Shown: piece after piece, positions 6,523 to 25,366 of the stretch
Numbering within the stretch: position 1 is the first letter of the stretch
Layout of the letters: each line of letters starts with the position of its first letter
From: a virus
Length of the DNA stretch: 25,366 bases
IMG/VR virus record: IMGVR_UViG_3300031111_000295
Coordinates: 1-25,366 of that record
Direction: 5' to 3' (one strand)
Position numbers and translations under genes: made by a program
Notes under the pieces: generated by a model
Told to the model about the DNA's origin: nothing
Seen by the model: only the letters and a program-made list of their open reading frames with translations
Databases searched by the model: none

Positions 6523-7041
6523 ATGGGCAGACGGCGCAAGCAAACAAATAAAGCCAAGCCAGTCCCGGGTACTGATCCTTCCGAAATCACACCGGAACTA
6601 GTTAGACAGTTGGCTACTCTGATAGACGACAAGACTTTAACCGGGGCTCAGCGTAAAATTATAGTGGTCAATTCTTTACCGCAGCTCGTTGACGTTCCAA
6701 ACCTGGAGAAATGTCGTCTTGCCTCGGTCTGTCCGCAAACTTACTACAAGTACCGCAAGCTGGAGAAGTACCAGGATGCCGAGAAGCAGTATCGGCACAA
6801 CCTTCTTGGATCAATTCAGTCCGAAATGCTGGCTCGATACGTCCGGTCGGCGCGGTACGGATCGGACGCGGCTGTTGTGAGGCTGCTGGAGGAAGGGAAG
6901 ACTTTCTTCCCGACCGGTCGTGGTATCAATATCGGGGTGTCGGTCAATCTATCACCGGAAGAACTCAAGAAAAAGCGGGAAGAAAACCGGCTTGAGGGTT
7001 TGGGGAAATATGGTTTTGTCCCTGTTCAGTCTGATAATTAG
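6523..7041 (+). CDS. terS: Putative terminase small subunit
   Basis: The product has 172 residues from ATG 6523, with AGGG 8 bases upstream. An in-frame GTG at 6400 sits at the predicted transcription start and its extra residues coincide with the leader stem-loop, so I reject it. The N-terminus is basic (MGRRRKQTNKAK). A helical DNA-binding region follows (LTGAQRKIIVVNSLPQLVD; CPQTYYKYRKLEKY), then an oligomerisation-type helix (YRHNLLGSIQSEMLARYVRS), and a charged C-terminus that could contact TerL. TerS recognises the phage DNA and hands it to TerL. The assignment rests on size, HTH-like pattern and position directly before TerL; small subunits diverge strongly. Confidence 0.7.
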   Translation: MGRRRKQTNKAKPVPGTDPSEITPELVRQLATLIDDKTLTGAQRKIIVVNSLPQLVDVPNLEKCRLASVCPQTYYKYRKLEKYQDAEKQYRHNLLGSIQSEMLARYVRSARYGSDAAVVRLLEEGKTFFPTGRGINIGVSVNLSPEELKKKREENRLEGLGKYGFVPVQSDN

Positions 7042-7054
7042 CGTGGTGGTGAGC

Positions 7055-8506
7055 ATGGTCCAGCCGATAACAGTCGATCTGAATCCGCTGGAAATGTTCA
7101 CGGCGGAGTATCTGCCGCACCGGCTGAAGCAGGCTGTCCCTCCTTTCCACCGCGAAATCAATCGTGTCCTGGCGGATCCCTCGGCGTCCTACGTCCTGCT
7201 TGAGGCTATGCGGGCCGGTGGCAAGACCACCCTGGTTGAAAATTGGGTTCTCTGGCAGATAGCGGAAGCGGCGCCGGATGATAGCGAGCTGCAGATTCTT
7301 AGCCGATCGGGTGACGATAACGGTACTGCCATCAAGCTAATGAAGCACGTGCGGGACGAGCTTGAGACGAACGAGATTCTTCTGAATGACTTCGGTCTGA
7401 CTCGGGGTGCCGCCTGGGGGCAGCGGCACGTCGAGGTCATTCGACCAGGTGGCGGTCGAATCAACTTCTACTCACACGGCAAGAAAAGTTCGATTCGAGG
7501 ATCCCGCGGAACCGTTTTGATCGACGACCCTCAGAACACGGACGATTGCGAGTCTGAGGCTATTCTGAACCGTGACATGCAGTGGTTCCTCACCGACCTG
7601 TTGCCGGTTATTCTACCGGAACAGCGCCTGTTGTTCATCGGCACGCCGATCAGTCCGCTGTCCCTGTGTTCTGCCCTCAAGGAAATGGAAGACTTCAAGG
7701 TGTTGTCCTTTCCGGTGGAGGACGCGTTTGGCAATTCGATCTGGCCGGACCACTTTCCCCAGGAGTATCTGGAGCAACGCAAACGGCTCATGGGGCTGGA
7801 CAACTACTACGGCGAGTACATGTGCGAGCCCAGAGTGTCCGGCAATCCCGTGTTTCGAATGGAGTGGATCAAAGATTACGATCCCGATTCTGAGCAGTTT
7901 GACCGGTTACGCCGAGAGGGCTTCTACATCGTGACCGGTATCGACAAAGCCCAGAGCAAGGACACGAAGGCTTGCAATACGGCCATGGTTACGGTGGCGG
8001 CGACTTTGGGGGCTGTGCCGGACATCTTCCTGCTGGAGTGCCGGGCCGATCGGTGGAGCACAAAGGAGGGCGCCGAACAGACGGTTCAGGTATTCAATGC
8101 ATTCCACCAGAATTGCACCGTACAGGAATCTGACCTGGCCAAGGGCCATGGTGACGATGCCATGACGGAGGAATTGAAGGCTTTGCAGCGGTTGTACGGG
8201 ATTCAGTTGAATATCGAGACAGTCCGACCGACCAGGGACAAGGTCTTGCGGGCAATGGCCGTCCAGTCTATGGTTCAAAATGGGCAATTTCATATCAATC
8301 GGCACGACCCCGGGCACCAGGCGCTGCTTCGGGAAATGATGATGTTTACCGGTGACGGCAAGTTCCTGAATGACCGGGTCGACGCCCTGGTCCACGCGCT
8401 GACGAAGATCAAGCAGTTGATGGACCGGCGCCAGACGGCTTCGAGCTCGGGACCGAAAAAAGTATTACCTCCCGGGCGCCGGCATTCCGTTACGGGGAAG
8501 GTGTGA
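7055..8506 (+). CDS. terL: Terminase large subunit (packaging ATPase-nuclease)
   Basis: The product has 483 residues from ATG 7055; upstream in-frame codons overlap terS and include a membrane-like run that is unlikely to be real. Walker A lies at residues 50-59 (EAMRAGGKTT), Walker B at about 154-159 (VLIDDP, with Asp in place of the usual Glu), and the coupling motif at about 194-198 (FIGTP). The nuclease half starts at GIDKAQSKDT (Asp 297), with a second acidic cluster (ESDLAKGHGDD) and the final NDRVDALVHAL. All motor and RNase H-fold landmarks are present at normal length. It drives DNA into the prohead through the portal and cuts the concatemer. Its C-terminal peptide LPPGRRHSVTGKV reappears in the small gene at 8684. 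Confidence 0.92.
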   Translation: MVQPITVDLNPLEMFTAEYLPHRLKQAVPPFHREINRVLADPSASYVLLEAMRAGGKTTLVENWVLWQIAEAAPDDSELQILSRSGDDNGTAIKLMKHVRDELETNEILLNDFGLTRGAAWGQRHVEVIRPGGGRINFYSHGKKSSIRGSRGTVLIDDPQNTDDCESEAILNRDMQWFLTDLLPVILPEQRLLFIGTPISPLSLCSALKEMEDFKVLSFPVEDAFGNSIWPDHFPQEYLEQRKRLMGLDNYYGEYMCEPRVSGNPVFRMEWIKDYDPDSEQFDRLRREGFYIVTGIDKAQSKDTKACNTAMVTVAATLGAVPDIFLLECRADRWSTKEGAEQTVQVFNAFHQNCTVQESDLAKGHGDDAMTEELKALQRLYGIQLNIETVRPTRDKVLRAMAVQSMVQNGQFHINRHDPGHQALLREMMMFTGDGKFLNDRVDALVHALTKIKQLMDRRQTASSSGPKKVLPPGRRHSVTGKV

Positions 8507-10556: not shown

Positions 10557-12428
10557 GTGCTATTTCTAACAGGTAACACACAGCGACTGGACTTTGACGG
10601 GAAACCCCTGGACCTGTTTCGAAATGCCTACTGGCAGGCCAAGCAGGCCCAGAACGTGCGCTTGGCGCAGTATCGCCGCGATTACCAGATGTTCAGCGGC
10701 TTTATTGACATGGTCGACCGGGACCCCGATCGGGCCAACATCTTCATTCCGAAGATTCGCAGCATCGTCAGGACCAAGTTGCCTGGTGAAGTAAAGGCTC
10801 TGGCCGGTACCAGGCCATACCTACCTTTCACCACTCGCCGGACCGAGTTCAAAAACGCCGTGCGGGTCTGGGTCGACGTTGTCGACTACCTGATGGGCGA
10901 AGGCAACTACGTCGTTCACCAGTCGTTTGCGGCCCTTCTCAAGTTGCTCTACGGCGTTTCCTTTATGGACGCGACTCCCTATTGGGTACCTTCGACGGAT
11001 CTGAAAGCAGTTCTAACGCCGAAAGGTCCGAAAGCGATTCGCGTGCCGGTTCAGAGGATGCGGTTGCGCTTCAAGACCTGGGCGCCGTGGGAGGTGTTTG
11101 TTGATCCCATCGCCACCAACCTTGAGGACTTTGGCGGGTGTCGGTATCTCATAAAGCCCCAGATTGCCAGCAAGCGCGAGATTGTGAGAATGGCTCAGCA
11201 GGGCATGTATCCCGGTCTGGACGTTCAGAAATTCCTGGATACAAAAGGCTGGAGCGGTCCCGGCGCTACCGGCGAAATGCAGCAGCATGCTGGCTGGCAG
11301 ATTCTGAGTTCTCTCGGAATACCACTGCCCCAGCTTGACAGCGACGTGGGGATCCTGTTCCGGTACGAATCCGAGGATCGATATATCGACGTCTGGAACG
11401 GTTTGCTGCCGCTCCGGGACATTCCGAATCCCTTCAAGCACAAAAAGATCAATACGGTGCGCTACATTCACGATATGGACGCGCACACGCAGAATCAGTT
11501 CTGGGCCACGGGAGAATCCAAGCAGAATGAGCTGCTTCAGGACCTGTATAACGAGCTCTTTGAAATTGCGATCGACTCCCACGTGATGACAAATCAACCT
11601 CTGATCGTTCACGACAAACGGGTCCAGCCTGAGGAAATCGTTATGACTCCGGGCGGCCGGGTAGGTATTGAACGTGATGAGAACGAACCGTTGTCGAACT
11701 ACCTCCAGATAACCCAGGGGAATCCTCTGCCCCGGGACCACTACGATCTGATGGCCGTGACCGGGCGGTATATGGATATGGGCGCCACTCAGTGGCCTCA
11801 GAGCCGGGGTGAACCGAGCGAAGATGACGCGACGGCAACGGAGATTATCAAACTCGATGAGGCTGCTGGTTCGACCAGGGAGCTGGGCGTCGTCTTGGGT
11901 GAGCAAATCTTTTTGAAATCTCTGTCCGACCGGGTGCTCTCTATTGTCCACCAGTCAGTGATGCCTGACGACGTCGTGGAGATTGTAGGCGAAGAACGGG
12001 CTATGGCGGTTTACGCTCCTACTGCGGCTTCGCCGGCCGGGTACGAGACTCTTGGCCCGCTGGACATCCCGGGCGGCGTCAACATGGAATTTCAGGGTTC
12101 GGATAAGATTGCGAACATGGCGATCAAGCAGCGCAACTGGAAAGAGATTTACCCCATGCTGGCCAGCAGTCCGAACTGTCTCCGCGGCAAGCTCGATTCG
12201 AAACTGCTCGAAGTCTACGACGAAGATACAGACGATATCGAGGAAATGATAATCCCGGACGAAGTGATGATGCAGATTCAGATGGCCGATCAGAGGCTTG
12301 CTTTTGAGCAGGATATGGAGCGCCAGCGCGTCCGAATACCGGGCGGTCAGCCCGGCGGGAAATACAAGGTTAATTCAGGAAAACAGGTCGCGGAAGATAC
12401 CGCGCAAGATGTGAGGAATACAGCATGA
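10557..12428 (+). CDS. Portal protein (short-tailed phage type)
   Basis: The product has 623 residues from GTG 10557. An in-frame TAA lies two codons upstream, so this is the earliest possible start. The N-terminus (NAYWQAKQAQNVRLAQYRRDYQMFSG) and the helical stem region, followed by RSIVRTKLPGEVKALAGTRPYLPF, are typical of P22-, T7- and SU10-like portals. Later TATEIIKLDEAAGSTRELG and a long Met/Gln-rich helical end (MMQIQMADQRLAFEQDMERQ) fit the wing and crown. Twelve copies form the ring at one head vertex through which TerL pumps DNA. It lies downstream of TerL and upstream of scaffold and capsid genes as expected. The ATGA overlap with the next gene puts an exported protein in translational coupling with the portal. 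Confidence 0.82.
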   Translation: MLFLTGNTQRLDFDGKPLDLFRNAYWQAKQAQNVRLAQYRRDYQMFSGFIDMVDRDPDRANIFIPKIRSIVRTKLPGEVKALAGTRPYLPFTTRRTEFKNAVRVWVDVVDYLMGEGNYVVHQSFAALLKLLYGVSFMDATPYWVPSTDLKAVLTPKGPKAIRVPVQRMRLRFKTWAPWEVFVDPIATNLEDFGGCRYLIKPQIASKREIVRMAQQGMYPGLDVQKFLDTKGWSGPGATGEMQQHAGWQILSSLGIPLPQLDSDVGILFRYESEDRYIDVWNGLLPLRDIPNPFKHKKINTVRYIHDMDAHTQNQFWATGESKQNELLQDLYNELFEIAIDSHVMTNQPLIVHDKRVQPEEIVMTPGGRVGIERDENEPLSNYLQITQGNPLPRDHYDLMAVTGRYMDMGATQWPQSRGEPSEDDATATEIIKLDEAAGSTRELGVVLGEQIFLKSLSDRVLSIVHQSVMPDDVVEIVGEERAMAVYAPTAASPAGYETLGPLDIPGGVNMEFQGSDKIANMAIKQRNWKEIYPMLASSPNCLRGKLDSKLLEVYDEDTDDIEEMIIPDEVMMQIQMADQRLAFEQDMERQRVRIPGGQPGGKYKVNSGKQVAEDTAQDVRNTA

Positions 12429-12913
12429 AATCGAAACTGTTGATTGCGGTCTTGTTAGTGCTTCCCGCACTGATAGCGGCATCTGATGTAAGTGTTCAGT
12501 ACAAGGACAGCATTACTGCAAGCGATTCGGTCGCGGTTCGGATCGACACGGCGTTCACACCGACGGTGTACGTCGGCAACAAGGAAGGTTTTCAGTTCTT
12601 TCCGAAGGTCTCGGCCTACACGGAAACGCAGTACGCCAACGACACCAACTGGACCGACGATAGTCTGTTCATCAAGGTCCAGTTCAGTTTTGACCTGTCT
12701 ACCTGGGTGACCTTCGAAGTCGACACTTTACTTGACAACGGCTCCGGGACGCTGCGGCTGACGTTGCTTCGAAACGATTCCACTCTGTTCGGTGACTGGA
12801 TGCGGGGCCTGCTCATACATCACGATTCTATCGGGGTGGGGGAGGCAGACTCCGCTCTGGTGAATGGTCCGGCATATTACAAGTTCTTTGAGTTATTCTA
12901 CACGACATGGTAA
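12425..12913 (+). CDS. Beta-rich protein with Sec-type signal peptide
   Basis: The product has 162 residues from ATG 12425, coupled to the portal by ATGA. Residues 1-20 form a textbook signal peptide: a basic start (MKSK), a hydrophobic core (LLIAVLLVLPALIA) and small residues at the likely cleavage site. The mature part is rich in Asp, Ser and Thr with few basic residues (KDSITASDSVAVRIDTAF) and alternates beta strands (LFIKVQFSFDLSTWVTFEVDT). It fits a single beta-sandwich. A secreted or membrane-tethered decoration, or a protein that changes the host envelope, would fit. Its position inside the head operon is unusual. It may be a distant paralogue of the next gene. Confidence 0.7.
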   Translation: MKSKLLIAVLLVLPALIAASDVSVQYKDSITASDSVAVRIDTAFTPTVYVGNKEGFQFFPKVSAYTETQYANDTNWTDDSLFIKVQFSFDLSTWVTFEVDTLLDNGSGTLRLTLLRNDSTLFGDWMRGLLIHHDSIGVGEADSALVNGPAYYKFFELFYTTW

Positions 12914-12930: not shown

Positions 12931-13449
12931 ATGAAAACAAGAATTGCACTGGCCCTGGCGGTGGGCTTGGCGCTGCTCGGCGCCATCTCGATCATGGGAG
13001 CAGCGCCGGTCTTCAACAATAAGACCGTACACCACGACACTATCACGATCGACAGCGAGTACACGGACGCCCGCTGGGAAGTGATCGACGAGGTGGACAT
13101 AGCGTTCACCGATTCCGCTTATGCCGTTGTAACCGTCAGCGGGGTGGCCACGCTGGATCCCGGCGACAGGCTCTATCTCGGGTTCGGCCGCTGTAATGCG
13201 GACGCCGAAATCGACTCCACCTGGTTCATGGATACCTGTATGGTCGACACGTTTATTGTCGAGCTGCCCGTGGATATTCGGTGGCATAAGCGAGTACCCT
13301 TCTCCTTCCAGTACATTGACTCCATCCTCAGCCAAACCGATTCGACCAGGTATATCAAAGTCGTCGGTGCGGTCGGTGGGTCGACTCACGGGGAAAAGGT
13401 GTTTCTCGAAAACCTGACGACTACGGGCATCATACTCGACCTGAACTGA
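12931..13449 (+). CDS. Second beta-rich protein with Sec-type signal peptide
   Basis: The product has 172 residues. I chose ATG 12931 over ATG 12907 because AAGGAGG at 12913-12919 lies between them and because the shorter form starts with a clean signal peptide (MKTRIALALAVGLALLGAIS, likely cut near MGA-AP). The mature part is again rich in Asp, Ser and Thr and beta-patterned (NKTVHHDTITIDSEYTDARW; YAVVTVSGVATLDPGDRLYLG). It has two Cys residues that could form a disulphide, which agrees with export. Size, order of elements and composition resemble the preceding protein. Role unknown; a pair of exported beta-sandwich proteins encoded between portal and scaffold is not a standard phage layout. 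Confidence 0.7.
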   Translation: MKTRIALALAVGLALLGAISIMGAAPVFNNKTVHHDTITIDSEYTDARWEVIDEVDIAFTDSAYAVVTVSGVATLDPGDRLYLGFGRCNADAEIDSTWFMDTCMVDTFIVELPVDIRWHKRVPFSFQYIDSILSQTDSTRYIKVVGAVGGSTHGEKVFLENLTTTGIILDLN

Positions 13450-13829: not shown

Positions 13830-14870
13830 ATGCCACGAATACCAGACGGCAGTAGCGTAGGCGACCTCCTGAATCAAGGGGAGACAACCGCTCCGCAGAC
13901 GCCGCAGCAAAAGCAGGACAATCCGGCCCCGGCAGCGCAGACCCAGACCCCGCAGCCACAGGCCCCGGCTCAACAGTCCGGACAAGTCGCACAGACCCCG
14001 GCTCAGCCGACGATTCAGGACCCTGCCAAGGGGACAGCAGGCCAGCAGCAAACCACCGGCGACAAGCCGGAAGGTTCGCAACCCCCTGCCACCGATGACC
14101 CTGAAGCCGCTCGCAGAGAGCACTATCAGACGACCTATCAGAACGTCCTGAAATTCATGAACGAAAGAGCTCCCGAGCTTCGCCGGGCATGGGACGAGGA
14201 ACGGTACGGAACCGCTCCGGCGCCCCAGATTCCTCGCGACGATCGGGGTAGGTTCACGATGCGACAGGATGCTCAGGGGAATCAGCTTGGAGAGCAGGGG
14301 CCTCCGGGGACGAACGAGTTCGATGACGAGTTCGATTTCACCGACAGGCGCCAGCTCCAGAAGATGATTCGGGACACGGTCGTTCAGGCCAACCAGGAGA
14401 TTCGGCAGCAGGATCAGCAGTATGAGGCAGAGCAAGCGGCTGTTCGTGAGCAAACGGCATTCCGTCGTGAGTTCTCGGCCTGTTCAGAGCAGGCCAACCA
14501 ATTGGAACAGGCTGTGCCGCCCGAGGTCTTCAAGAAGGCGATTGAAAACGTCAACCGGTACTACGGTGTGCGCGTTTTCGTCCATCCTGGTGATGAAAAG
14601 TCACCCGGCATTCCTGGTGGACCTACGGCGTTTCTGCAGGGGCTGGTCAGAGAGGTTGATCTCATCATGCAGAGCCATGAAGGTACGGCCCAGACAGTGG
14701 GACAGATTGCCGCAGTTACGGCCCATGCCAAGAATGCGGCCTTGACCCAGCAACCGGCGCCGGCCAGCGTGGCAACACCGAAGGAAGAAACTGAGAACCA
14801 GAAACATCTGAACCGCATGAAGGCTGCCGGCGGCGACGTCGTGGGCACTCTTATGAGCGGGACAGGATAG
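13830..14870 (+). CDS. Putative scaffold protein
   Basis: The product has 346 residues from ATG 13830, with GGAG upstream. Residues 15-90 are Gln/Pro/Ala-rich and disordered. A helical, Gln- and Glu-rich region follows (REHYQTTYQNVLKFMNERAP; TVVQANQEIRQQDQQYEAEQ), and the end is again helical and polar. Composition, length and position directly before the major capsid gene are typical of phage scaffolds, which guide capsid assembly and then leave the head. A short conserved-looking patch (FDDEFDFTDRRQLQKMI) may be the helix that binds the coat. No protease motif is seen. Assigned from context and composition, not from a specific family match. Confidence 0.72.
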   Translation: MPRIPDGSSVGDLLNQGETTAPQTPQQKQDNPAPAAQTQTPQPQAPAQQSGQVAQTPAQPTIQDPAKGTAGQQQTTGDKPEGSQPPATDDPEAARREHYQTTYQNVLKFMNERAPELRRAWDEERYGTAPAPQIPRDDRGRFTMRQDAQGNQLGEQGPPGTNEFDDEFDFTDRRQLQKMIRDTVVQANQEIRQQDQQYEAEQAAVREQTAFRREFSACSEQANQLEQAVPPEVFKKAIENVNRYYGVRVFVHPGDEKSPGIPGGPTAFLQGLVREVDLIMQSHEGTAQTVGQIAAVTAHAKNAALTQQPAPASVATPKEETENQKHLNRMKAAGGDVVGTLMSGTG

Positions 14871-14906: not shown

Positions 14907-16124
14907 TTGGCACTTACACTTGTAGCAGGTGTTCGTGCTCGCGATTCACTAGTAACCGCCCGTGAGGATACGGATTACGCGCGCGGCATTGCTCTCCTCG
15001 AACCGTGGAAAAACCCGATGACTCTGGTCACCCAGCGCCTCGGGCACTATTCGTCCGATACGGTCGACTTCCACCACTACGAGGATGTGACGGTGCCTTA
15101 CCAGGACCAGGTCAACAATGGTGGAGGCTATTCCGACACCGACACGGCAATTGTCGTTGATACCGGCGGCCTGTTCAAGGCTGGCGATCTGGTCCGGGTG
15201 GATGAGACCGGCGAAATTATGCTGGTCACCTCTGTCAGCACGAACACGCTGACGGTCATCCGCGACTACGGACAGGCGGAGGGCTGGACTGCTTCGGCAG
15301 CGGCCCTGGTAGACAACTACCATCTGACTCGCCTGTCCAACGCGTTCGAGCAGGGACACGACCTGCCCGACTCCGTGACCACTCAGGAAGTCGACGTCAA
15401 GAACTACACCCAGGACATTCGCACGTCGTGGTTGCTGACGGATATTCTCCAGAACAGCCTTCTGCGCGGAGAGCAGGATCAGGCGTTCCAGGATCGGAAG
15501 AAGGGCATCGAGCACTTCATGAAGATCGAAATGGCGAATATCATCGGCAAGCCCTACGCCGGTGACAAGGGTGCCTTCTCCGGAAGTCACGGTTCCGGTG
15601 ATGCTCCGACGACCTGTGGCGGTTGCAACTACTTCATCGAAAACGAAGGCGACACCAACCTCATGGTCGATCAGACCGATCTGACCATGTGGGAGTTTGT
15701 CGATTTCCTGGAACCGCTTTTCCAGTACGGCAGCGCCACCCGGTTCTGCTTCTGCCCGTCCGCCCTGCGGACCGCTCTGGACAAGTGGGGAATAACGAAG
15801 ATGCAGACTTTCGCGTCTCAGGACGTTTTGGGCATGAAGATTGGCCGGTGGGATTCGTCCCACGGTACGGTCTACTTCATCATGCACGACGCCCTGCGGC
15901 CGGCAGCTTCCACTCTGTGGAAGAACTGCTTCTTCCTGGACATGGACAAGCTCGATTGGGTCACGCTCCAGAACATCGGCAGCACCTCGATGACGACGGT
16001 AGACTACCGTCACTCGACGGGTGCGACCAAGACCGGTTACGAATACCGGACGATTCAGGGCATTCGGTTCAGACAGCCGAAATGCCATGGTCGTCTGCGG
16101 CTCAAGACCGTTTCTGTGGCGTAG
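14907..16124 (+). CDS. Major capsid protein, SU10/DUF5309-like HK97 fold
   Basis: The product has 405 residues from TTG 14907, six bases after AGGAGG (14896-14901). No ATG or GTG nearby fits. The sequence follows the SU10 major-capsid pattern: an N-terminal segment (PWKNPMTLVTQRLGH), a beta insertion with GDLVRVDETGEIMLVTSVS and NTLTVIRDYGQ, the helix NYTQDIRTSWLLTDILQNS, and the spine-helix region with KKGIEHFMKIEMANIIGKPY. A P-domain follows with the C-terminal strands TGYEYRTIQGIRFRQPKCHGRL. Such proteins form the shell of short-tailed phages related to SU10. A terminator-like hairpin follows the gene, which fits its need for high expression. Confidence 0.85.
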   Translation: MALTLVAGVRARDSLVTAREDTDYARGIALLEPWKNPMTLVTQRLGHYSSDTVDFHHYEDVTVPYQDQVNNGGGYSDTDTAIVVDTGGLFKAGDLVRVDETGEIMLVTSVSTNTLTVIRDYGQAEGWTASAAALVDNYHLTRLSNAFEQGHDLPDSVTTQEVDVKNYTQDIRTSWLLTDILQNSLLRGEQDQAFQDRKKGIEHFMKIEMANIIGKPYAGDKGAFSGSHGSGDAPTTCGGCNYFIENEGDTNLMVDQTDLTMWEFVDFLEPLFQYGSATRFCFCPSALRTALDKWGITKMQTFASQDVLGMKIGRWDSSHGTVYFIMHDALRPAASTLWKNCFFLDMDKLDWVTLQNIGSTSMTTVDYRHSTGATKTGYEYRTIQGIRFRQPKCHGRLRLKTVSVA

Positions 16125-16209: not shown

Positions 16210-16764
16210 GTGAGTAAGGAAGAGAAAGCAAAGGCCGAAGCGGAAGCTAAGGCGAAAGCAGAAGCTGAAGAGAAAGCAAAGGCCGAAGCGGAAGCTAAGG
16301 CGAAAGCACCTCTTCCCGGAGCGCCGGTAGTGGAAGCGAAGCCGAAGGACACGCTGGACGACCCGCCGATCGATCCGAGCAAGCCCTACATTTTCAAGGT
16401 CACGACGCCAAGAACGGTCAACCTGACCGGAACGCGCACGGCTCTCGTCAGTGACGGCCTTGGTGGCCACGTCGTTCAACCGGTGGCCGGGCCTGTGAAG
16501 GCCGTCTTCAACAGCGGCTTCTTCGTCTGCACGCCCGAATGGGCGGAATCCCAGGGGCTGACCCAGGTTCAGGCGGTCCGGTTACTGCGGAAGTATTGCC
16601 GCGAAGAACCGGCGGCTGCCGAAATCGGCTCCCAGGAATACCTGCAGCTCCTGAAGCAGAGAGACGCACTGGACGACAAGATCAAGCTGGTCTCGGGCGC
16701 CCGGTCGACCGGTGCTGTTACCGGAACAAACGCCGGACCGTCTCTGCCGAAAGCTGACGGATAA
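16210..16764 (+). CDS. Head protein with Ala/Glu/Lys repeat N-terminus
   Basis: The product has 184 residues from GTG 16210 with AAAGGA upstream. Residues 3-33 are a low-complexity Ala/Glu/Lys helix made of two identical 14-residue copies. The folded part (about 45-150) is beta-rich, with TVNLTGTRTALVSDGLGGHV, GPVKAVFNSGFFVCTPEW and a small helix. The position after the capsid gene matches head decoration, head-fibre or completion proteins in other phages, and a charged helix joined to a beta domain would suit a capsid-surface protein. No family is certain. TAATG overlap with the connector gene. Confidence 0.65.
   Translation: MSKEEKAKAEAEAKAKAEAEEKAKAEAEAKAKAPLPGAPVVEAKPKDTLDDPPIDPSKPYIFKVTTPRTVNLTGTRTALVSDGLGGHVVQPVAGPVKAVFNSGFFVCTPEWAESQGLTQVQAVRLLRKYCREEPAAAEIGSQEYLQLLKQRDALDDKIKLVSGARSTGAVTGTNAGPSLPKADG
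16219..16308 (+). repeat. Exact 42-bp direct repeat in the Ala/Glu/Lys helix
   Basis: Bases 16219-16260 recur exactly at 16267-16308, offset by 48 bases. Both copies are in frame and encode EEKAKAEAEAKAKA. Perfect identity at DNA level indicates a recent duplication, probably by slippage, which lengthened the charged helix. Confidence 0.9.
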
Positions 16765-17459
16765 TGCTCAGGGAATCGCAGATAAGCCTGGCCCTGGCGG
16801 CGCCGGAGATCAGGGCGCTCGACATTGCTGTCGATGAAAAGCGTGAGATGGCAAACGACTACTTGGATATTGCCGTCGACGTCCTGACCCTGGCGCATAG
16901 CTGGGACTTCGTTATGGGAGTCAACGACCATACCGACGGTACGGTGGCCGACCAGGCGGAGTACACGTTGATCGGTGCGGACAACGATTGCCGGGCGATC
17001 TACAATGTTCGGGTGGCAGACAACACTTCGGACACGGACGATGAGGATCTGCGCCTCCTTGACAAAAAACTGCCGGCTGAAATAGACGACTATCTTCAGC
17101 GGTACACCATGACGAAGACGGCAATATGGGTCCCCACCGGTACGTCGAGCGGTTCTCCCCAGGTCACCCTTTACAAGACACCGTCGGAAAGCGGCCGGTG
17201 CTTGCGGTATCGCTACTGGAAAAACGGCGTCACGTTCGAGGACTTCCCTGATGATTTCGCCGGACTGTTCGATACCGCTATCAGAGCCAGATTCACACCG
17301 GCGATGCGTCAGGTACTGGAGTCTCAACTTACCGACCAGATAAACAGCCATAACCGGTCAGGTGGCGGCGCCAAGTCGGTTCTGGTCAATCCGTATGTTG
17401 CTCGTCGGAATCTGAGACGGGCCGGGTGGTTTGGATACAGCAGCGGGAGTTTGTTCTGA
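16764..17459 (+). CDS. Head-tail connector, gp4/adaptor-like (first copy)
   Basis: The product has 231 residues from ATG 16764 (TAATG). N-terminal helices (ISLALAAPEIRALDIAVD; NDYLDIAVDVLTLAHSWDFV) are followed by a beta region with AEYTLIGADNDCRAIYNVRV and VTLYKTPSESGRCLRYRYW, then C-terminal helices (LFDTAIRARFTPAMRQVLES) and a basic tail. This order fits the P22 gp4/T7 gp11-like adaptors that sit below the portal and link it to the tail. No signal peptide is present here, unlike in the similar protein at 17719. Assigned from pattern and position. Confidence 0.68.
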   Translation: MLRESQISLALAAPEIRALDIAVDEKREMANDYLDIAVDVLTLAHSWDFVMGVNDHTDGTVADQAEYTLIGADNDCRAIYNVRVADNTSDTDDEDLRLLDKKLPAEIDDYLQRYTMTKTAIWVPTGTSSGSPQVTLYKTPSESGRCLRYRYWKNGVTFEDFPDDFAGLFDTAIRARFTPAMRQVLESQLTDQINSHNRSGGGAKSVLVNPYVARRNLRRAGWFGYSSGSLF

Positions 17460-17749
17460 TGGACGCCCACGAATATCAATGCCCCGAGTGCGGCTACCAG
17501 AGGTCGTCTTTCGCTGATGCCTGGCAGACTGTCAACTGTGATGAATGCGGCGCCCCCATGAAGCGGGGAGTTTTCGTTCCACCCGTTTATCGGGTTTACG
17601 TCCCAGGCCGTGGACGAAACTCTTATCGGTCCCTTCCGGACAGAAAGGTTGACCGGGCGCCGGGAATAGCCCGGCAAGTAATGGACGAAGCTCATCGGGA
17701 ACGTGAGGTTATGAAAAAATGCGGACGATACGAACGATTGTATCAGTAG
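17459..17749 (+). CDS. Zinc-ribbon protein in the connector cluster
   Basis: The product has 96 residues from ATG 17459 (TGATG; GGGAG upstream). CPEC and CDEC, 17 residues apart, form a zinc ribbon of the FmdB/regulatory type in residues 7-32 (CPECGYQRSS and VNCDECGAPMKRG). The rest is basic and Arg-rich (RVYVPGRGRNSYRSLPDRK) and ends in a helix. It overlaps the next gene by 31 bases. Zinc ribbons of this form are common in bacterial and phage genomes without a proven role; an assembly or late regulatory job is possible. Confidence 0.72.
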   Translation: MDAHEYQCPECGYQRSSFADAWQTVNCDECGAPMKRGVFVPPVYRVYVPGRGRNSYRSLPDRKVDRAPGIARQVMDEAHREREVMKKCGRYERLYQ

Positions 17750-18438
17750 TCCTATCGCTGCTGTTGCTGCCGGTTCTGGCCGTGGGGCAAACAAGCCCTC
17801 GACTTGACTCGATGACGGTCGCGGCGCTGAACCAGCTGGGGATCAAACCAACAGGCACCGATCTGGTGACGCTGGCCAAGGTTTATGAGTTCGTGAATGT
17901 CGCGATCGAGGACGTTTCCACTTCCTGGCCGGCTATTGAAAAGGTCGACACCGTTGTTGCGCGGGATTCGGTTGAAAGCGCCGTCCTGCCCTCCGATTTC
18001 GTGTCGATTTACAGCTGCGACTGGATTCTTGGGGACAGCATTCGCATTCCACTTGAGTACGTCCCACGTGATAGTCTATCACATTTACTGTCGAACGCCG
18101 AAACGGCTATGGCTGAACCTGCAAAAATCATCAAGGGTGAGGAAAAATTCTACTACTCGACCTTCGCCGGCGGGCTGTACACCTGCCCGAAAGTCTGGCA
18201 TGACTCCAGCCTTGGAGGGTCGATCTCGCTGTTTGTCTGCTACTACGCCAGGGGCGCGAAGTTGACCGCTGTGGGCGACACTACGACGGTTCTGAGCAAA
18301 TACCGGCGATATATCCGGTGGCACGTGTGCGAACAAATAGATTTGCTCTGTGGCAGAGTTGATCGAGCTGCGTACTGGCGGGGCCTGTACACGGCGGGTC
18401 TGCCGCCACAAATGCGAGAGATTGAGGGAAAGAAGTAA
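17719..18438 (+). CDS. Connector-like protein with signal peptide
   Basis: The product has 239 residues from ATG 17719, inside the end of the zinc-ribbon gene, with GAGG 11 bases upstream. Residues 1-24 are a good signal peptide (MRTIRTIVSVVLSLLLLPVL, then AVG-Q). The mature part has the gp4/adaptor pattern: N-terminal helices (VTLAKVYEFVNVAIEDVS), VLPSDFVSIYSCDW, a PLEYVPRDSLSHLL segment, a beta core, and C-terminal YRRYIRWHVCEQIDLL. The next internal Met (about residue 33) has no ribosome binding site, so the signal peptide is probably made. The product should therefore enter the periplasm or membrane, which is strange for a tail-assembly protein. Confidence 0.6.
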   Translation: MRTIRTIVSVVLSLLLLPVLAVGQTSPRLDSMTVAALNQLGIKPTGTDLVTLAKVYEFVNVAIEDVSTSWPAIEKVDTVVARDSVESAVLPSDFVSIYSCDWILGDSIRIPLEYVPRDSLSHLLSNAETAMAEPAKIIKGEEKFYYSTFAGGLYTCPKVWHDSSLGGSISLFVCYYARGAKLTAVGDTTTVLSKYRRYIRWHVCEQIDLLCGRVDRAAYWRGLYTAGLPPQMREIEGKK

Positions 18439-18441
18439 GTA

Positions 18442-21237
18442 GTGAAGTACCTGTCTCTGTTGATAGTACCCTTCGTCCTGCTCGCGGCCGTGAGGGGGGC
18501 GGCCGTCGAGCGAGAATCCGCAACCGGCTTAACCGGCGTGAATATAGTTGCGTCCGATTTGGCGATCAGAAAGAATGAGGCCAGGACTTGCAACAACTTG
18601 GATTTGTCCAGGGTACGGATCGGTTCGGCCAGTTTGCGTGAGGGGTTCGACAGCATATCAGCTCTGTCCGGAATGGATTCGTGTCTTGATTTTACCGCGG
18701 CATACTATAAAGATGGGACCCAGGAACTTCTCTCGGTTTTCGATAGTACAGGCGTCGGGTACGGAGGTTTGTACGTTTCGCCGTCCGGCGACGATCAGTT
18801 TTCTGGGAGTAATCTCTACACCCTTACGATTTCGGAGGCGACTCGCCCCTACACTTACGTCGACAGCATTTTCGTCGGCTCTGATACGATTGTGGATACC
18901 TTCAGGGCCATAGATTCGGAAGACGGCTTGTACGCGATTTACAGAAATCTGCGCGACAGCCTCAATGCTAACGCGACCTTCCTGCAGTATTTCACGGCGA
19001 CGGCTGTGCCCCTCAAAGTCAAGGAGGAAATGGCCGGGCTGACAGTTACTTTCGCCACCGATACCACCCAATCTTTGGATACCGCTGTTTTGAATATCGA
19101 ATCACTCTGGATGCCGTTTTCTGTCCAGCGGCGCCCGTGGTTCGCTCAGTTCAACGATCAGATATTTGTTGTGAATGGGGCGCAGAAAGGGGTGGCCTAC
19201 AACCGACAATTAGCCCGCTCCTATCCTCCGAATGCTTTGGGAGAGCCTACCCTTACACCGTTGGACAACGACGGCGGACCCAACGGGGAGTATCGCTACG
19301 CTTTTCGGTCGGCTCCAACGGAGGATGCCGATTCATTGGGGCGCATAGGCTTCGTCTCAGATCCGGTCCGAGTGGAGAATGGACAAGTCCTGATCAAAGA
19401 TTTCACCTGGATGCCGGGTGATTCGGTGACTCCGGCGCCGGATAGCATTTGGATCGTTGGCTACCGGACAAAAGCCAATCCTGGAAGGTTGGACAAGTCG
19501 GATTACGCCTTCAGCATCGGAACCGTGGCGTTGGCTTCAAGCGCATCGGGTCTGGGTTCGATCAAATTTATAGACAGCCTTTCTGACGCTGACTTATCGG
19601 CCGCGGATAGCGTGCCCCTACTTCAACCAGAGACATACACAGGCTTGGATGATACCGGGGTGTTGGTCCAGTCATACGGTGCTCCAAGTTATGACTCTGC
19701 GCTTTCATTTATGTCTTATGATAGCGCCGATGCCGACGCTGAGTGGGGCATTTTCTACGGTATCCCAGAGCAGAATGATACGGGGGCGGTGATGTACGCC
19801 GTCACCGTGATGGACACTGTGTTCGGCGTAGAATCCGGGTTATCGGCTGGACTGGCGGTATACGTGGACGCCGATTCGGCGGTTGGAAACAAGTTGAAAC
19901 CGAAAGGTTACTCGATCACCGTGCCGAATATCCCCTATGGCGATAGCGGGTTGGTGGTGAACGTCTATCGGGCGCACATACTGCAGGTAACCTACGACAG
20001 CAACTTTACGCCGCTTGATACGTTCCTGACTCGACTTCACAATTTCTTCTATAAGGGCGATGTCAAGTGGGTCCTCCCGTTGGGAATCGATACCGTAGTG
20101 GTCTCAGAGTTTCGGTTGGTTGAGCAACTAAAACAAGGGCAAACGACGCTGGTCGACAGCATCAATTGGGACTCGCTGCAGAGCAAACGGATCTACCGTG
20201 ATGCCGTGCCGCCTATATTCTCTGGTATTCTATCCTACGATAATCTGCTCGTCGGTTGGGACGGTTCGACTGTGGCTTGGTCGGATTTGGATTCTGGCGG
20301 TGTGTTTGGCGTCTTTAATCGCAAGGAAATCAATCCGGACGATGGCGATCAGATAAACGTGTGCTACGGCGGGCGGTATTTTCACGTATACAAAAACTAC
20401 TCCAACTACATTCTGTACAACGATTTTGCGGACGTGCAGAAGGTTGGTGATTGGGGCTGTATCGCCCCGAAATCCTTTGCTGCCGGCTCCAACGGTCGGT
20501 TTTACCTCTCCGCCGAGGGGGTAGTCTTCGAGACAGACGGCAAACAGCTTGAGCGCACCGTCGAGGAAGGTCTGATCTCCAAGAAGCTGAAAGGCTTCAC
20601 GTACTATTCCTTCGACGTCCGACGCAAAGCTGTCGGACGATGGTTGCCAGAGGAACAAAAGTACCTGATCTCCTTTCATGGGTCGGATTGGGATACCACC
20701 TGGGTCTACGACAAAGCGGCCGCCGACGCTTTTGGTGAGGAAGTCTGGTACTCTTGGACCGGTCTAACCTTTGCCGCCGGCACGCTCTACGGCACCGAGA
20801 CGACGACCGACTTTGTGCCGGGGACCGATTTCTACTTCACAAAGCCAGGAGAAAGCAAACTCTACAAGTACGGCGGTGTGACGACGGATCCCGACACGAC
20901 AGCGGTGCAGTTTGAATATCGGACTGGTCCCTGGCTTGTTGACTATCCGTACAAGGCCAGGGTAGGGGCTTTAGGAATCAGGGCCAGTGACGCTCCGGAT
21001 AGCGAGCAGGTATCCATTGAATTGCTGGGCGAGACGGGGAGTTTGTTGGCGGACACGATCAACGTCACTGATTTGGACGAGGTGTATCAGTTTAAGCAGT
21101 TAGAGGCGGCGGCTCCGGCGCTGGAGCATCATCTTCGACTATTCAATCAGCCGGGGCTGGCGCCGTTCGTCTATATGACCATAGACGCGATCGACGTCTA
21201 CTTCGAGCCCAGGACTGAGCCTTTACTTCTGAGATAG
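18442..21237 (+). CDS. Tail nozzle/stabilisation-like protein with signal peptide
   Basis: The product has 931 residues from GTG 18442 after GAGGGAAAGAAG. It opens with a signal peptide (MKYLSLLIVPFVLLAAVRGA). The next segment, VASDLAIRKNEARTCNNLDL followed by SLREGFD, matches the start of P22 gp10/T7 gp12-like nozzle proteins. Residues 600-800 show the usual propeller pattern: EINPDDGDQINVCYGGRYFH, WGCIAPKSFAAGSNGRFYLS, then AEGVVFETDG and WYSWTGLTFAAG. These proteins form the tail tip below the connectors and start DNA delivery. Length is at the upper end. Central domains (250-550) look like tandem beta-sandwiches. The mature part is rich in Asp and Ser. The signal peptide is unexpected for this family. 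Confidence 0.68.
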   Translation: MKYLSLLIVPFVLLAAVRGAAVERESATGLTGVNIVASDLAIRKNEARTCNNLDLSRVRIGSASLREGFDSISALSGMDSCLDFTAAYYKDGTQELLSVFDSTGVGYGGLYVSPSGDDQFSGSNLYTLTISEATRPYTYVDSIFVGSDTIVDTFRAIDSEDGLYAIYRNLRDSLNANATFLQYFTATAVPLKVKEEMAGLTVTFATDTTQSLDTAVLNIESLWMPFSVQRRPWFAQFNDQIFVVNGAQKGVAYNRQLARSYPPNALGEPTLTPLDNDGGPNGEYRYAFRSAPTEDADSLGRIGFVSDPVRVENGQVLIKDFTWMPGDSVTPAPDSIWIVGYRTKANPGRLDKSDYAFSIGTVALASSASGLGSIKFIDSLSDADLSAADSVPLLQPETYTGLDDTGVLVQSYGAPSYDSALSFMSYDSADADAEWGIFYGIPEQNDTGAVMYAVTVMDTVFGVESGLSAGLAVYVDADSAVGNKLKPKGYSITVPNIPYGDSGLVVNVYRAHILQVTYDSNFTPLDTFLTRLHNFFYKGDVKWVLPLGIDTVVVSEFRLVEQLKQGQTTLVDSINWDSLQSKRIYRDAVPPIFSGILSYDNLLVGWDGSTVAWSDLDSGGVFGVFNRKEINPDDGDQINVCYGGRYFHVYKNYSNYILYNDFADVQKVGDWGCIAPKSFAAGSNGRFYLSAEGVVFETDGKQLERTVEEGLISKKLKGFTYYSFDVRRKAVGRWLPEEQKYLISFHGSDWDTTWVYDKAAADAFGEEVWYSWTGLTFAAGTLYGTETTTDFVPGTDFYFTKPGESKLYKYGGVTTDPDTTAVQFEYRTGPWLVDYPYKARVGALGIRASDAPDSEQVSIELLGETGSLLADTINVTDLDEVYQFKQLEAAAPALEHHLRLFNQPGLAPFVYMTIDAIDVYFEPRTEPLLLR

Positions 21238-21249
21238 GCAGGTGAGATT

Positions 21250-21711
21250 ATGAACGAATTTCGGATGGGACGATACGCGCCGTACCTCAGCGGCTACCAG
21301 GCCGGGGGAAAACAGGGTGGTGGGATAAACTACAATCCCTTCTGGCAGGCCCAGGCGTTGCAAGCGGGCGGTGACATTGTGGGCGGTCTAGGGGATGCGC
21401 TGTTCAAGTCTGGGGCCGAAAAAGACGCCGAGTGGGGCCGTAATCAACTGAAAGGTATGTTCGGGAAGCCCGTATTCGATCCCCGGGCGCTTGCAACGAC
21501 TCGCGAGAACGCCTTCCGGGCCGCAATCAAGCCGATCGCACACCAGGCCGATCAGCGGTTTGGTCTGGACGACGCTCGGGCCTACAACGAAATCATGTGG
21601 CAGTACGGCAACCTGAAAGGAAACTGGCTGGCGGATATGATCGCCCGAGAGGGCCAGCTTCGCCGAGGTTACGATACTCAGATTGCCGGTGCCTTGGCGG
21701 GAGGAGGTTGA
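21250..21711 (+). CDS. Ejection/internal-virion-type small protein
   Basis: The product has 153 residues from ATG 21250, with AGGTGAG before it. A Gly-rich N-terminus (GYQAGGKQGGGINYNP) is followed by helices with small residues (QAGGDIVGGLGDALFKSG) that could interact with membrane, and further amphipathic helices (TTRENAFRAAIKPIAHQADQ). Its place after the nozzle matches small ejection proteins of podoviruses, which leave the head with the DNA and help form a channel. No specific family is recognised. Confidence 0.6.
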   Translation: MNEFRMGRYAPYLSGYQAGGKQGGGINYNPFWQAQALQAGGDIVGGLGDALFKSGAEKDAEWGRNQLKGMFGKPVFDPRALATTRENAFRAAIKPIAHQADQRFGLDDARAYNEIMWQYGNLKGNWLADMIAREGQLRRGYDTQIAGALAGGG

Positions 21712-21715
21712 TGCA

Positions 21716-22492
21716 ATGCCGTATGAAATGACACCAGGCCGGGCAATCTTTGGCGGAATCGGCAGGGGTATGAGCCGTGCCGGCGCCGGACTGATCGGCT
21801 ACGCCGAAAACCAACGTGACTACCGGGACAGACTCGAACGGGAGAAAAAGGACGAGGCTTACCGTCAGAACATGTTGGGACTGAGCCGAGACCGTTTCGG
21901 GCTGGCCAACAAGCAGTTCCAGCAGGGAGTGCAGGAATCGGCGCTGGACCGTGCCTATCGTGAAAAGCAGGACGCTTTGAATCGGGCGTTCAAACGGGAC
22001 GTCTTCGAATACGGCAAAGAGCGGGACAATATCGGCGATCTTTTCAGGAGCGCCACGTTCACGGCCGGACGAGAGGATGCGGGCCGGAATTATAATCTGG
22101 GGCTGCGTCAAGAAAACCGTCTTGAAAGAAATAGCTCCGGCGTCAATGCCAGTGGTTATCCGTCTGGCGTCTCCGGAGCTTTTGCCCGGGCGATTCTTGA
22201 AGGGTACGGCCAGGGTATCGGTGATTGGGTAAGTGACCCTGAGACTCATCTTATGCAGTTCAGGCCGCGTTCCTGGTCGAGCACGGACGTCCAGGGAGCT
22301 CAGCAGTTACTGGACCAGGCATTCAACACGCAGGGTTTTGGCAGACGATCTTCTGCCAGTTACAATCTGGGACCTGCTATAAGCGGACCCGAGCAGGCAG
22401 GTCTAACGCCGTTACCATACGATGGCTCAATAAGTGAAGACGACTATCAGGACTATCTCGACCTTTGGCATCAGGAGCATGGTGGTAGATAA
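21716..22492 (+). CDS. Helical internal-virion-type protein
   Basis: The product has 258 residues. ATG 21716 follows GGAGG at 21703-21707 (inside the preceding gene's end), while the in-frame ATG 11 codons upstream lies in the other gene. A Gly/Ala-rich N-terminus (AIFGGIGRGMSRAGAGLIGY) leads into a long charged helix (residues 30-105; RDYRDRLEREKKDEAYRQ, LDRAYREKQDALNRAFKRD). The second half is less ordered and ends acidic. The arrangement resembles ejection proteins. TAATG overlap with the giant gene that follows suggests they act together. Confidence 0.6.
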   Translation: MPYEMTPGRAIFGGIGRGMSRAGAGLIGYAENQRDYRDRLEREKKDEAYRQNMLGLSRDRFGLANKQFQQGVQESALDRAYREKQDALNRAFKRDVFEYGKERDNIGDLFRSATFTAGREDAGRNYNLGLRQENRLERNSSGVNASGYPSGVSGAFARAILEGYGQGIGDWVSDPETHLMQFRPRSWSSTDVQGAQQLLDQAFNTQGFGRRSSASYNLGPAISGPEQAGLTPLPYDGSISEDDYQDYLDLWHQEHGGR

Positions 22493-25366
22493 TGCCGTCT
22501 CTTGCTGAAGAATATGCCCGCCTGAAGAACAGGCAGCAGAGCCCGCTGCAGCAACAGCTCGCGCAATTGCGATCAAGGCGGGCCGTGGTGGATCGGGCCG
22601 ATCGTGGATTGCTGGGCGACATCTGGCATGATATTGGGCCTGACGTGAAGGGCTTGGCGAATCTTGTCAGTAGCCCGATACCCGGTGTCCCGACAAGCCG
22701 GGAAGGCGTTTCTCTGGTCGAACGGACGGTGGAGCCGCTGAACGCAGCCAGAAAGTACGTTGCTGAGGGCGGTAGAGACGTGCTGCGGGCCGGGCATAGT
22801 CTCATGCAGGGGCTGGAGAAGGTTACTGGTGTTGAACCGCCTCCGTACCCAGAAGAAGCCGCCGTTTATTCTGGGTTCAACATGCGCGGCAGACCCTACT
22901 ACTTCGTCCCGAACAAGCCAGCCCATGATCTATTCCGGGCTCAAGGCGCCATGAGATCGACGCCCTACACTCCACTCGGGGGAGAGGTTTTGCAGGGGAC
23001 GATGGCGGCTGCTCGGACCGTGGGACGCGGTGCGATCGGCATCGCAACCTTCTTACCTGGGCTTCTGCAATATCTGGACCCGCAAGAGGGGCAGGCGCCG
23101 ACAGACGAGCTGACGGGTTTGGCTGATATGGCAAAGAGCGGTCTTGTTGGGGCAGACTATCGTATTCAGAGGCTGTTCGGGGTCGAGGATCCCTCCGGGA
23201 ATATCGATCCGAATAATCCATTCGCCAGGGCTTTAGGGATCGACCAGCAGGAGTATCGGAAGTACGCCAATATGGGCGTGTCGGAAGCGCCTGAGAGCGT
23301 ACCGATAACTGCCTTGCTTGGCAAGGGCGCCTTTGAGGGCGGCAAACGCGTGATGAGCCGGCGACCGCCGACCGGGCCGGTTGCATTCGATCCAAACCGG
23401 CATCTGACTATGGCCGATTTGGAACAACCGCGGCCTCCGGCTATCGAGAATCGATCACAGGCACCGTTGCAGATTGGTCAGGAGCGGGGTTTCACAATGC
23501 GTGACCCCAATATAGGAGACGCGTCCAAAGACACCTTCAGGCGGCCTCAAATTGGAAATAGATACCAAGCATCGCCTCAACTTGAGTGGGGGGGTGGTTT
23601 CACGTTCCGCGATCGGCGTCCAGGAGAAGTGTTTCCTTTCGAGCGTCCGCTTCTGCCAGAGGGCGAGACCAGATATGGCGAAGGATTCTCGATGGTACCG
23701 GGTACGGCCCGCTCGGCCACTGTGGGCAGAACGGTGGCTCAGGAGCGTGGATCTCGAGAGTTCCGGCCTGGTGGCAGGGCTGCTCGGGAAGGTGAGGTTC
23801 ATTATCGCCTGAAGGAGGCACACCGTGCGGACATAGAAGCAATCAAGTCGGCGACTGAAAACATCGACCGGGTTGTCACGGAGAATGCCAAGACCGAAGA
23901 AGTTGTTGGCGGCACCTACGGGATGGTGGATGTCGAAATGCCGGGCGGACAGAGAATACCCGGCAAGTACATGTGGACAACCGAGCCTTGGCTGGCCGGT
24001 AAGAATTTCAATATGAAGCAGCTTCGCGCGGCTGCTGAAAGAGCCTTGGCTGGTGAGCCTTTAACACAAATGCAACGGGGCGAGTTGAATCGTGCCTATG
24101 AAAGCCTTACGAGGTTTAAGCAAGAGCAATTCAAAAGCCAGCCGAAAATAGTTAGCGATTTGGGTTTGAAGACCGGCGACGAATTGAAAATCCGCGGTGA
24201 CTGGCATCGGGTGACTGAGAATGAAGAAGGCACCTTGACTATCAAAGACGGTCAGACATACGAGGTCGATGTTTTTGATAGAATCCCTGTTGATCTAAAT
24301 GCTCGGGAGCAACCGATAATCCGCCGGAACGTGCCGGAGCCGGAGTCGCACGTACCTGGAATTGGCGTGACGCGTGACCCGCTGGACAGCTATTATGATT
24401 ATCTCGATGTGGGGGAACGCCGCTATTCGAAGATGAAGAAGCAAGAGCCTGCGCCCGAAAGTGCCGCGCTCGATGAAGTCGAGGCGGTTAATCCCTTTGC
24501 GCGTGAGCTTCCGGCTGAACCGGCGTCGGGTGTCGGTCTGCCTCGTCCGCAACGATATGAGCAGTTGAAAGGCGAAGGTTACAACGAGCGGGAGATAGAC
24601 CAGATATTGGAGCTGGAGGGCGACGCGACGTTTCTCTCGAATTATTATCCGGGGCAAGCGGCGAAAGATTTTAGGGCTTCCACGGACCGCGCATTCAGGA
24701 CCGAACAGACACCGGCCGGGGATCAGTTCACGTTTGCGCCCCAGAGGGAGTTGCCTCGGGGTAAGATCAGACAGGCAGGGCGCAAGACGAGGAATGTGAT
24801 TAACCAGGCGGACGCGTTCAATCCGGACAAGGTGAAGGTGGGGAATCTGCCACAGGATCAGGTTGACATATTCGTTGCTCCTAAGAAAGAGGGAGTGGTT
24901 CCTGAACCTGCGAAGGAAACGCCGAAATTGTCAATCGAAGCCAGCGGAGTTGCGCCAGAGAGGGCCGCGGTGATTGATCGCATCCTTGAGGCTGCCAAAG
25001 ACCCTAAACTTGAAATCGTTCCCTCCCGTAGTTTCCCGGGCAAAGGCTATGTTCTGCAGAGACCAGACGGTACTACTGGTGGCCAGTTGAAGCCGACAAG
25101 GGAGGCTTGGGAGCGGCAGTTGGCCGAAAATCAGGCCGCCAAGGACGCGAGTTTCCGAGCCGAGTTGGAAAAGATGTCTGACGACCGGTTGAAGGCTCAG
25201 GCGGAGTATTGGCTGAAGGAAGGTGCCTACGAGTATTTTCCGAAGACGATGGGACAGCGAGCGATGGACGTCGTGCGCTCGACTGGCGATAATATCAAGC
25301 CCCAGAGTGCCAAGAAAGTTACCGACCGCAACGGCTTCTCCATTTTCAAGGTAAAGACCTTCGAGA
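22492..25366 (+). CDS. Giant internal-virion/polyvalent-like protein (3' partial)
   Basis: At least 958 codons are open from ATG 22492 (TAATG) to the window edge without a stop. Residues 1-280 are helical with a hydrophobic patch (GRGAIGIATFLPGLLQYL) that could insert into membrane. Residues 330-405 contain three related motifs, GFTMRD at 333, GFTFRD at 369 and GFSMVP at 398. Around 555-590 a small SH3-like segment occurs (LKTGDELKIRGDWHRVTE). The remainder is charged, Pro-rich and largely disordered with helical islands (LEKMSDDRLKAQAEYWLKEG). This mix of domains joined by linkers fits a large ejected protein or a polyvalent protein delivered with DNA. The enzymatic part, if any, may lie beyond the window. 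Confidence 0.6.
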   Translation, partial: MPSLAEEYARLKNRQQSPLQQQLAQLRSRRAVVDRADRGLLGDIWHDIGPDVKGLANLVSSPIPGVPTSREGVSLVERTVEPLNAARKYVAEGGRDVLRAGHSLMQGLEKVTGVEPPPYPEEAAVYSGFNMRGRPYYFVPNKPAHDLFRAQGAMRSTPYTPLGGEVLQGTMAAARTVGRGAIGIATFLPGLLQYLDPQEGQAPTDELTGLADMAKSGLVGADYRIQRLFGVEDPSGNIDPNNPFARALGIDQQEYRKYANMGVSEAPESVPITALLGKGAFEGGKRVMSRRPPTGPVAFDPNRHLTMADLEQPRPPAIENRSQAPLQIGQERGFTMRDPNIGDASKDTFRRPQIGNRYQASPQLEWGGGFTFRDRRPGEVFPFERPLLPEGETRYGEGFSMVPGTARSATVGRTVAQERGSREFRPGGRAAREGEVHYRLKEAHRADIEAIKSATENIDRVVTENAKTEEVVGGTYGMVDVEMPGGQRIPGKYMWTTEPWLAGKNFNMKQLRAAAERALAGEPLTQMQRGELNRAYESLTRFKQEQFKSQPKIVSDLGLKTGDELKIRGDWHRVTENEEGTLTIKDGQTYEVDVFDRIPVDLNAREQPIIRRNVPEPESHVPGIGVTRDPLDSYYDYLDVGERRYSKMKKQEPAPESAALDEVEAVNPFARELPAEPASGVGLPRPQRYEQLKGEGYNEREIDQILELEGDATFLSNYYPGQAAKDFRASTDRAFRTEQTPAGDQFTFAPQRELPRGKIRQAGRKTRNVINQADAFNPDKVKVGNLPQDQVDIFVAPKKEGVVPEPAKETPKLSIEASGVAPERAAVIDRILEAAKDPKLEIVPSRSFPGKGYVLQRPDGTTGGQLKPTREAWERQLAENQAAKDASFRAELEKMSDDRLKAQAEYWLKEGAYEYFPKTMGQRAMDVVRSTGDNIKPQSAKKVTDRNGFSIFKVKTFE

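Follow-up and report, generated by a model that had tools for sequence, protein, structure and literature searches.

Signal peptides on the adaptor and nozzle proteins of a probable SU10-type phage suggest that tail parts may be exported through Sec

The window analyzed here, a phage fragment of 25,366 bases (positions 1 to 25,366 of the IMG/VR virus record IMGVR_UViG_3300031111_000295), contains genes for two core tail parts, an adaptor and a nozzle, that both open with signal peptides of the Sec/signal peptidase I type. Leaders are also present on the orthologous proteins of a distant relative, L086, and in both genomes the split between proteins with and without a leader coincides with the head-tail border. 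The window probably derives from a short-tailed phage of the SU10 structural type whose host was a member of the Bacteroidota or a related diderm, and its late genes are ordered TerL, portal, two small genes, scaffold-like protein, SU10-type capsid, a leaderless connector, adaptor, nozzle and three ejection-like genes. Based on the leaders, we consider it marginally more probable than its opposite that the tail proteins are exported through Sec and processed, that heads remain cytoplasmic and that the two are joined at lysis.

Four late genes of the window open with such leaders: those of the adaptor and nozzle and two of small proteins that start at 12425 and 12931 (Table 1). The first two had been pointed out in an earlier note made from the sequence alone and were borne out by our analysis; the other two were not listed there. 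The adaptor (239 residues) begins with MRTIRTIVSVVLSLLLLPVLAVG, followed by QTSPRLDS after the predicted cleavage site, and the nozzle (931 residues) with MKYLSLLIVPFVLLAAVRGA, followed by AVERES. Both leaders have a basic n-region (at least one basic residue), an uncharged hydrophobic core of 13-19 residues and an AXA-like (small-x-small) site, and rule-based inspection of the two found neither a Tat RR nor a lipobox Cys, the combination expected of Sec/signal peptidase I substrates. The calls were made with a home-made sequence rule, which passes 10 of 1144 background genes (0.9%) from about 80 related phage loci vs. four of the approximately 30 genes of the window (binomial P about 1e-4).

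The earlier note had also placed ribosome binding sites at both starts. The adaptor ATG has GAGGT 9 nucleotides (nt) upstream; the nozzle GTG has only a weak Shine-Dalgarno (SD) sequence (GGA, 12 nt), yet lies 3 nt past the adaptor stop codon. Of the small genes, that at 12931 has an ATG preceded by AAGGAGG, and the ATG at 12425 overlaps the portal stop codon (ATGA). SD sequences are weak at the nozzle GTG as well as at the starts in L086, and the L086 homologue of the 12425 protein has an internal TTG whose SD sequence is better, which might suggest that the starts are mis-called and that translation initiates past the hydrophobic segment. We consider this very improbable, as in-frame starts just past the adaptor or nozzle leader in the window have no usable SD sequence, the gene junctions (the 3 nt gap at 18438/18442 and the ATGA overlap at 12425) suit the leader-containing starts, and the 12425 leader is present in four orthologues.

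Alignment-guided scans of viral contigs produced about 80 loci that encode a capsid protein of this family, and a portal alignment gave closer relatives; scans of the viral contigs with a single nozzle, major capsid or portal protein gave no match, so that family alignments were required. The relative L086 is a contig of 48,123 bases whose ends share exactly 46 bases, and for that reason it is, with caution, probably near complete. Its proteins are 34% (adaptor), 33-37% (nozzle), 35% (first connector) and 44% (portal) identical to those of the window, and leaders are present on its adaptor, nozzle and 12425 orthologues at 33-44% protein identity. The L086 adaptor begins with MKKYIIPFLILLFSVSASAQISPRLDS, as compared to ...VLAVGQTSPRLDS in the window, and its predicted cleavage site, ASA/Q, is followed by SPRLDS as in the window. 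The L086 nozzle begins with MIKYLFILVFLPVLAFGQSD (site FG/QSD), and the 12425 homologue, which starts at 11895, with MIKKVLVLVLLLAVTAGANDL. The leader of the 12425 protein was found in four genomes, namely the window, L086, L005 (2056) and L094 (contig end), while no relatives were found of the protein encoded at 12931..13449. L086 has three further leader-bearing genes 3' of its ejection-like genes, for proteins of 561, 216 and 1105 residues; these are plausibly fibres based on their position, and none of the three had a confident family match.

This conservation bears on whether the leaders are real but mostly unused for export, with the proteins folding in the cytoplasm and following the usual assembly, and the leader either cut off by a protease of the phage or simply tolerated. 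A prohead-protease reading has been proposed for capsid-protein leaders of Porphyromonas gingivalis phages (PMC10367356), and the TerL genes of the window and L086 show that hydrophobic N-termini can come from frame overlap. However, the properties of the leaders are conserved in orthologues that are only 33-44% identical although most residues have changed, the adaptor and nozzle leader cores are not within any overlapping gene, and head proteins are without leaders, all of which makes this explanation improbable.

The earlier note's labels of connector-like and nozzle-like proteins stand, as adaptor and nozzle family profiles built without the two proteins match them; the nearest group is SU10, however, rather than P22 or T7 specifically, the phages proposed there for comparison. 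In the SU10 cryo-EM structure the nozzle is gp17 and the adaptor gp11 (PMC9509320). The window adaptor matched the Pfam family SU10_adaptor (PF24175) with an E-value of 2e-5 and 25.5 bits, just below the cut-off of 27, and phrog_2941 with an E-value of 1e-7, and the window and L086 adaptors together matched the adaptor family in hhalign (Prob 94, E 1.2e-7, 176 columns). Consistent with this is the placement of the gene between those of the capsid and the nozzle, as for the SU10-type adaptor. A hidden Markov model (HMM) of the nozzle grown from relatives, with the window and L086 held out, matched the window nozzle (E 1.4e-9) and SU10 gp17 (PDB 7z47_G; E 4e-67), although the L086 nozzle was no longer among the matches in the final round, and hhalign of the beta-propeller region gave Prob 97.9 and E 4e-13 over 307 columns. 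Single-sequence comparison of the window nozzle to SU10 gp17 was not significant, a tblastn search of phages with the nozzle gave zero matches, and a PDB sequence search with the window and L086 nozzles gave only weak cellulosome matches on a beta stretch, which we rejected as chance. Models predicted from two-sequence alignments had pLDDT values of 37 (adaptor) and 27 (nozzle), and the predicted fold identity of both proteins comes from profiles and gene order.

The family alignments begin 3' of the leaders, at residues 36-49 of the window proteins vs. family positions 18-38; the leader is thus added ahead of the normal N-terminus. Outside the window and L086, a leader-giving start was found in none of approximately 50 nozzle and 35 adaptor homologues and, therefore, the leader is not a family trait. 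Within the two genomes its placement is selective: the portal, scaffold-like protein, capsid, first connector and ejection-like proteins are leaderless, and the second adaptor, the nozzle and the 12425 protein, along with the three late tail-region proteins of L086, have leaders. The first connector, whose L086 orthologue (16926-17588, 35% identity) is likewise leaderless, probably stays with the head.

The adaptors of the window and L086, along with the L086 nozzle, have Gln at position +1, in line with the Q-rule of Bacteroidetes signal peptidase I (PMC5837995). In most of seven Bacteroidota phages examined as a control, leaders were present only on small, spanin-like or lipoprotein-like genes. 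Cellulophaga phage phi10:1 (L101), on the other hand, has a fibre and pectate-lyase cluster (gp91-gp95) in which all proteins have a leader followed by Gln, and for gp91-gp94 the annotation records experimental detection in virions by tandem mass spectrometry; the leader is shared by homologues in further Cellulophaga phages, e.g., phi19:3 and Ingeline_1. These five fibre/lyase genes with Q-rule signal peptides are consecutive (41847-48878). The first 42 residues of phi10:1 gp94, comprising the leader and a short stretch, recur at approximately 90% identity in pectate-lyase proteins of phi13:2 and Nekkels that are otherwise unrelated, as though an export-and-docking module had been shuffled. 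Lyase proteins with "signaling peptides" were noted in the Ingeline/Nekkels paper, in the part of it consulted with no conclusion on assembly (PMC8776804), and Q-rule genes, function not known, occur in P. gingivalis phages (PMC10367356). Leaders on fibres thus have precedent, while leaders on the adaptor and nozzle are seen in the window and L086 only: portal, capsid and connector- or nozzle-like genes of the Cellulophaga podoviruses phi19:3 and phi38:1 are without leaders.

In the mechanism that we propose, the adaptor, the nozzle and, in L086, the three further tail-region proteins would be synthesized as precursors, pass through the host's Sec translocon and be cut by signal peptidase I, while the capsid, scaffold, portal, first connector and ejection-like proteins would remain cytoplasmic. 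The periplasm, or the outer side of the inner membrane, would then be where tails or tail subcomplexes take shape, and these would join DNA-filled heads carrying the portal and first connector once the inner membrane opens at lysis. Tail-protein export is favored, among other things, by the recurrence of the leaders on the same genes at 33-44% identity and by their split of head from tail genes. Judging from the leaders, export is likely, whereas assembly outside the cytoplasm is unproven. That the whole tail (second adaptor, nozzle and fibres) is assembled there from Sec-exported, signal-peptidase-processed subunits and joined to separately filled heads at lysis is a serious possibility that, in our estimate, falls a little short of an even chance.

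Several observations weigh against the proposal. Podovirus tails are ordinarily assembled step by step in the cytoplasm, on the filled head, and to join tail and head through a membrane would require lysis or some unknown step. Leaders on the adaptor and nozzle are known from two genomes only, and in the cultured Bacteroidota phages examined leaders occur on fibres or lyases only and on none of the connector and nozzle-like genes seen. In addition, Gln at +1 occurs in one of the four window leaders, the nozzle, 12425 and 12931 proteins being without it, and the SD sequences at some of the leader-containing starts are weak.

The normal order of podovirus assembly would be preserved if the leader instead brought precursors of the tail to the inner membrane for assembly on docked heads at the cytoplasmic side, with the anchor kept or cut late and the mature part not crossing; late-region proteins of relatives with multiple transmembrane segments (L086 16034-16918, L094 4029-4859) could serve as docking sites. 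We regard this as unlikely, as the conserved AXA sites and Gln at +1 indicate passage to signal peptidase I, a charged stop-transfer pattern is absent after the core, and the window showed no gene with multiple transmembrane segments in its late region. The same conserved sites disfavor the retained membrane anchor that the earlier note had offered as one of three outcomes. Another of these, an exported non-virion protein dedicated to envelope modification or exclusion, is disfavored by the failure to find a second, leaderless nozzle copy in L086 and by the virion annotation of the phi10:1 fibres, which together favor exported tail proteins that are used in the virion. A broader version, in which export before lysis serves mainly envelope effects (receptor masking, superinfection exclusion or polysaccharide processing) and some of the proteins also enter virions, has in our view a small chance: exported receptor-binding proteins would cover the receptors of the infected cell, and leader-bearing fibre and lyase proteins are common in the Cellulophaga phages examined, but in SU10 the adaptor and nozzle belong to the core of the conduit (PMC9509320) and a leaderless nozzle to serve the virion was not found in L086.

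Table 1. Features of the window (all coordinates refer to the full 25,366 bases)
Feature	Coordinates	Strand	Evidence
Portal, signal peptide absent	10557..12428	+	Position; 44% identity to L086 10001-11881
Predicted exported protein, 162 residues; leader ends about AA/SD (12425-12481)	12425..12913	+	Leader kept in four genomes
Second predicted exported protein, 172 residues; leader MKTRIALALAVGLALLGAISIMGA	12931..13449	+	Rule-based prediction; AAGGAGG at start
Scaffold-like protein, signal peptide absent	13830..14870	+	Precedes capsid gene; Gln/Pro-rich
Major capsid protein, SU10 type, signal peptide absent	14907..16124	+	PF17236, E 5.5e-26
First connector, adaptor-like, signal peptide absent	16764..17459	+	Weak profile match to adaptor family, Prob 77, E 2e-5
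Adaptor (tail connector 2), SU10 type, N-terminal Sec signal peptide	17719..18438	+	PF24175, phrog_2941, hhalign, L086 orthologue
Adaptor signal peptide, predicted cleavage AVG/Q, Gln at +1	17719..17787	+	Sequence, rule-based prediction, L086 orthologue
Nozzle, SU10 type, 931 residues, N-terminal Sec signal peptide	18442..21237	+	Held-out HMM, hhalign, L086 orthologue
Nozzle signal peptide, predicted cleavage near RGA/A	18442..18501	+	Rule-based prediction; L086 orthologue has FG/QSD
Three ejection/internal-protein-like genes, signal peptide absent	21250, 21683, 22492, within 21250..25366	+	Position 3' of nozzle

Among the remaining features of the window, the gene of a zinc-ribbon-like protein of 96 residues (CPECGYQ..NCDECGAPM; 17459-17749) separates the two connector genes and shares 31 bases with the start of the adaptor gene. 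The called TerL genes (window 6920-8506, L086 7100-8686) have a hydrophobic N-terminus that is read-through of the overlap with the upstream gene; the apparent leader (window 6920/6974, L086 7100) was therefore rejected as the shadow of the overlapping upstream frame in both genomes, and the true TerL start is probably further downstream in each. The ejection-like gene at 22492 is cut by the window end, and the positional counterpart of the ejection-like genes in L091 has a weak match to the P22 injectosome translocase. L091 also encodes a late protein of 1259 residues (2117-5896) with an ADP-ribosyltransferase-like polyvalent domain (ART-PolyVal, E 5e-15), which is perhaps injected with the DNA. 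The late-region protein of L086 and L094 with many hydrophobic segments has approximately 280 residues, and the L086 copy had no Pfam or convincing PHROG match. In the capsid-family loci L017 (16072-16608) and L019 (16005-16598), a late protein of 178-197 residues downstream of the tail genes has a signal peptide of another type (DSISKVGKKVQAEYVIKVDGKKL). A scan of genome contigs with the portal gave no relative, and the single major capsid protein match in genome contigs (L096, Nealsonbacteria) was rejected as it was without a phage late region.

Of the known systems, Escherichia phage SU10 (Kuravirus; gp11, gp17, PDB 7z47; PMC9509320) shares with the window its capsid type, the adaptor and nozzle profile matches and a similar late-gene content, but its adaptor and nozzle are without signal peptides, whereas the window and L086 have two adaptor-like genes and leaders on the adaptor and nozzle. 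Cellulophaga phages phi10:1 (gp91-gp95) and phi19:3, and the Ingeline_1 homologues, likewise have Sec leaders followed by Gln at +1 on proteins of the tail region, although these are restricted to fibres and lyases, with no leader on the phi10:1 connector and tube genes or on the connector-like genes of phi19:3. The P. gingivalis Nixviridae phages also have genes with Bacteroidota-type signal peptidase I sites, but there the Q-rule genes were read as host-modifying and the capsid leaders as prohead-protease sites (PMC10367356). In the open-licence literature that we searched, no tailed phage was described as having a division of labor between head and tail across the inner membrane.

Virion proteins with Sec leaders that are assembled at the inner membrane are familiar from the filamentous phages, namely as their coat and minor proteins. 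Those phages are, however, single-stranded DNA inoviruses that are extruded without lysis and have no tail, portal or packaged head, and the morphogenesis of tailed phages is taught as a cytoplasmic process. If core tail parts are indeed exported through Sec, then tail assembly, disulfide formation, signal-peptidase processing and head-tail joining would span a membrane, and lysis would become an assembly step. Tail export, if true, would also explain the secretion signals on the Cellulophaga phage fibre proteins that are recorded in virions.

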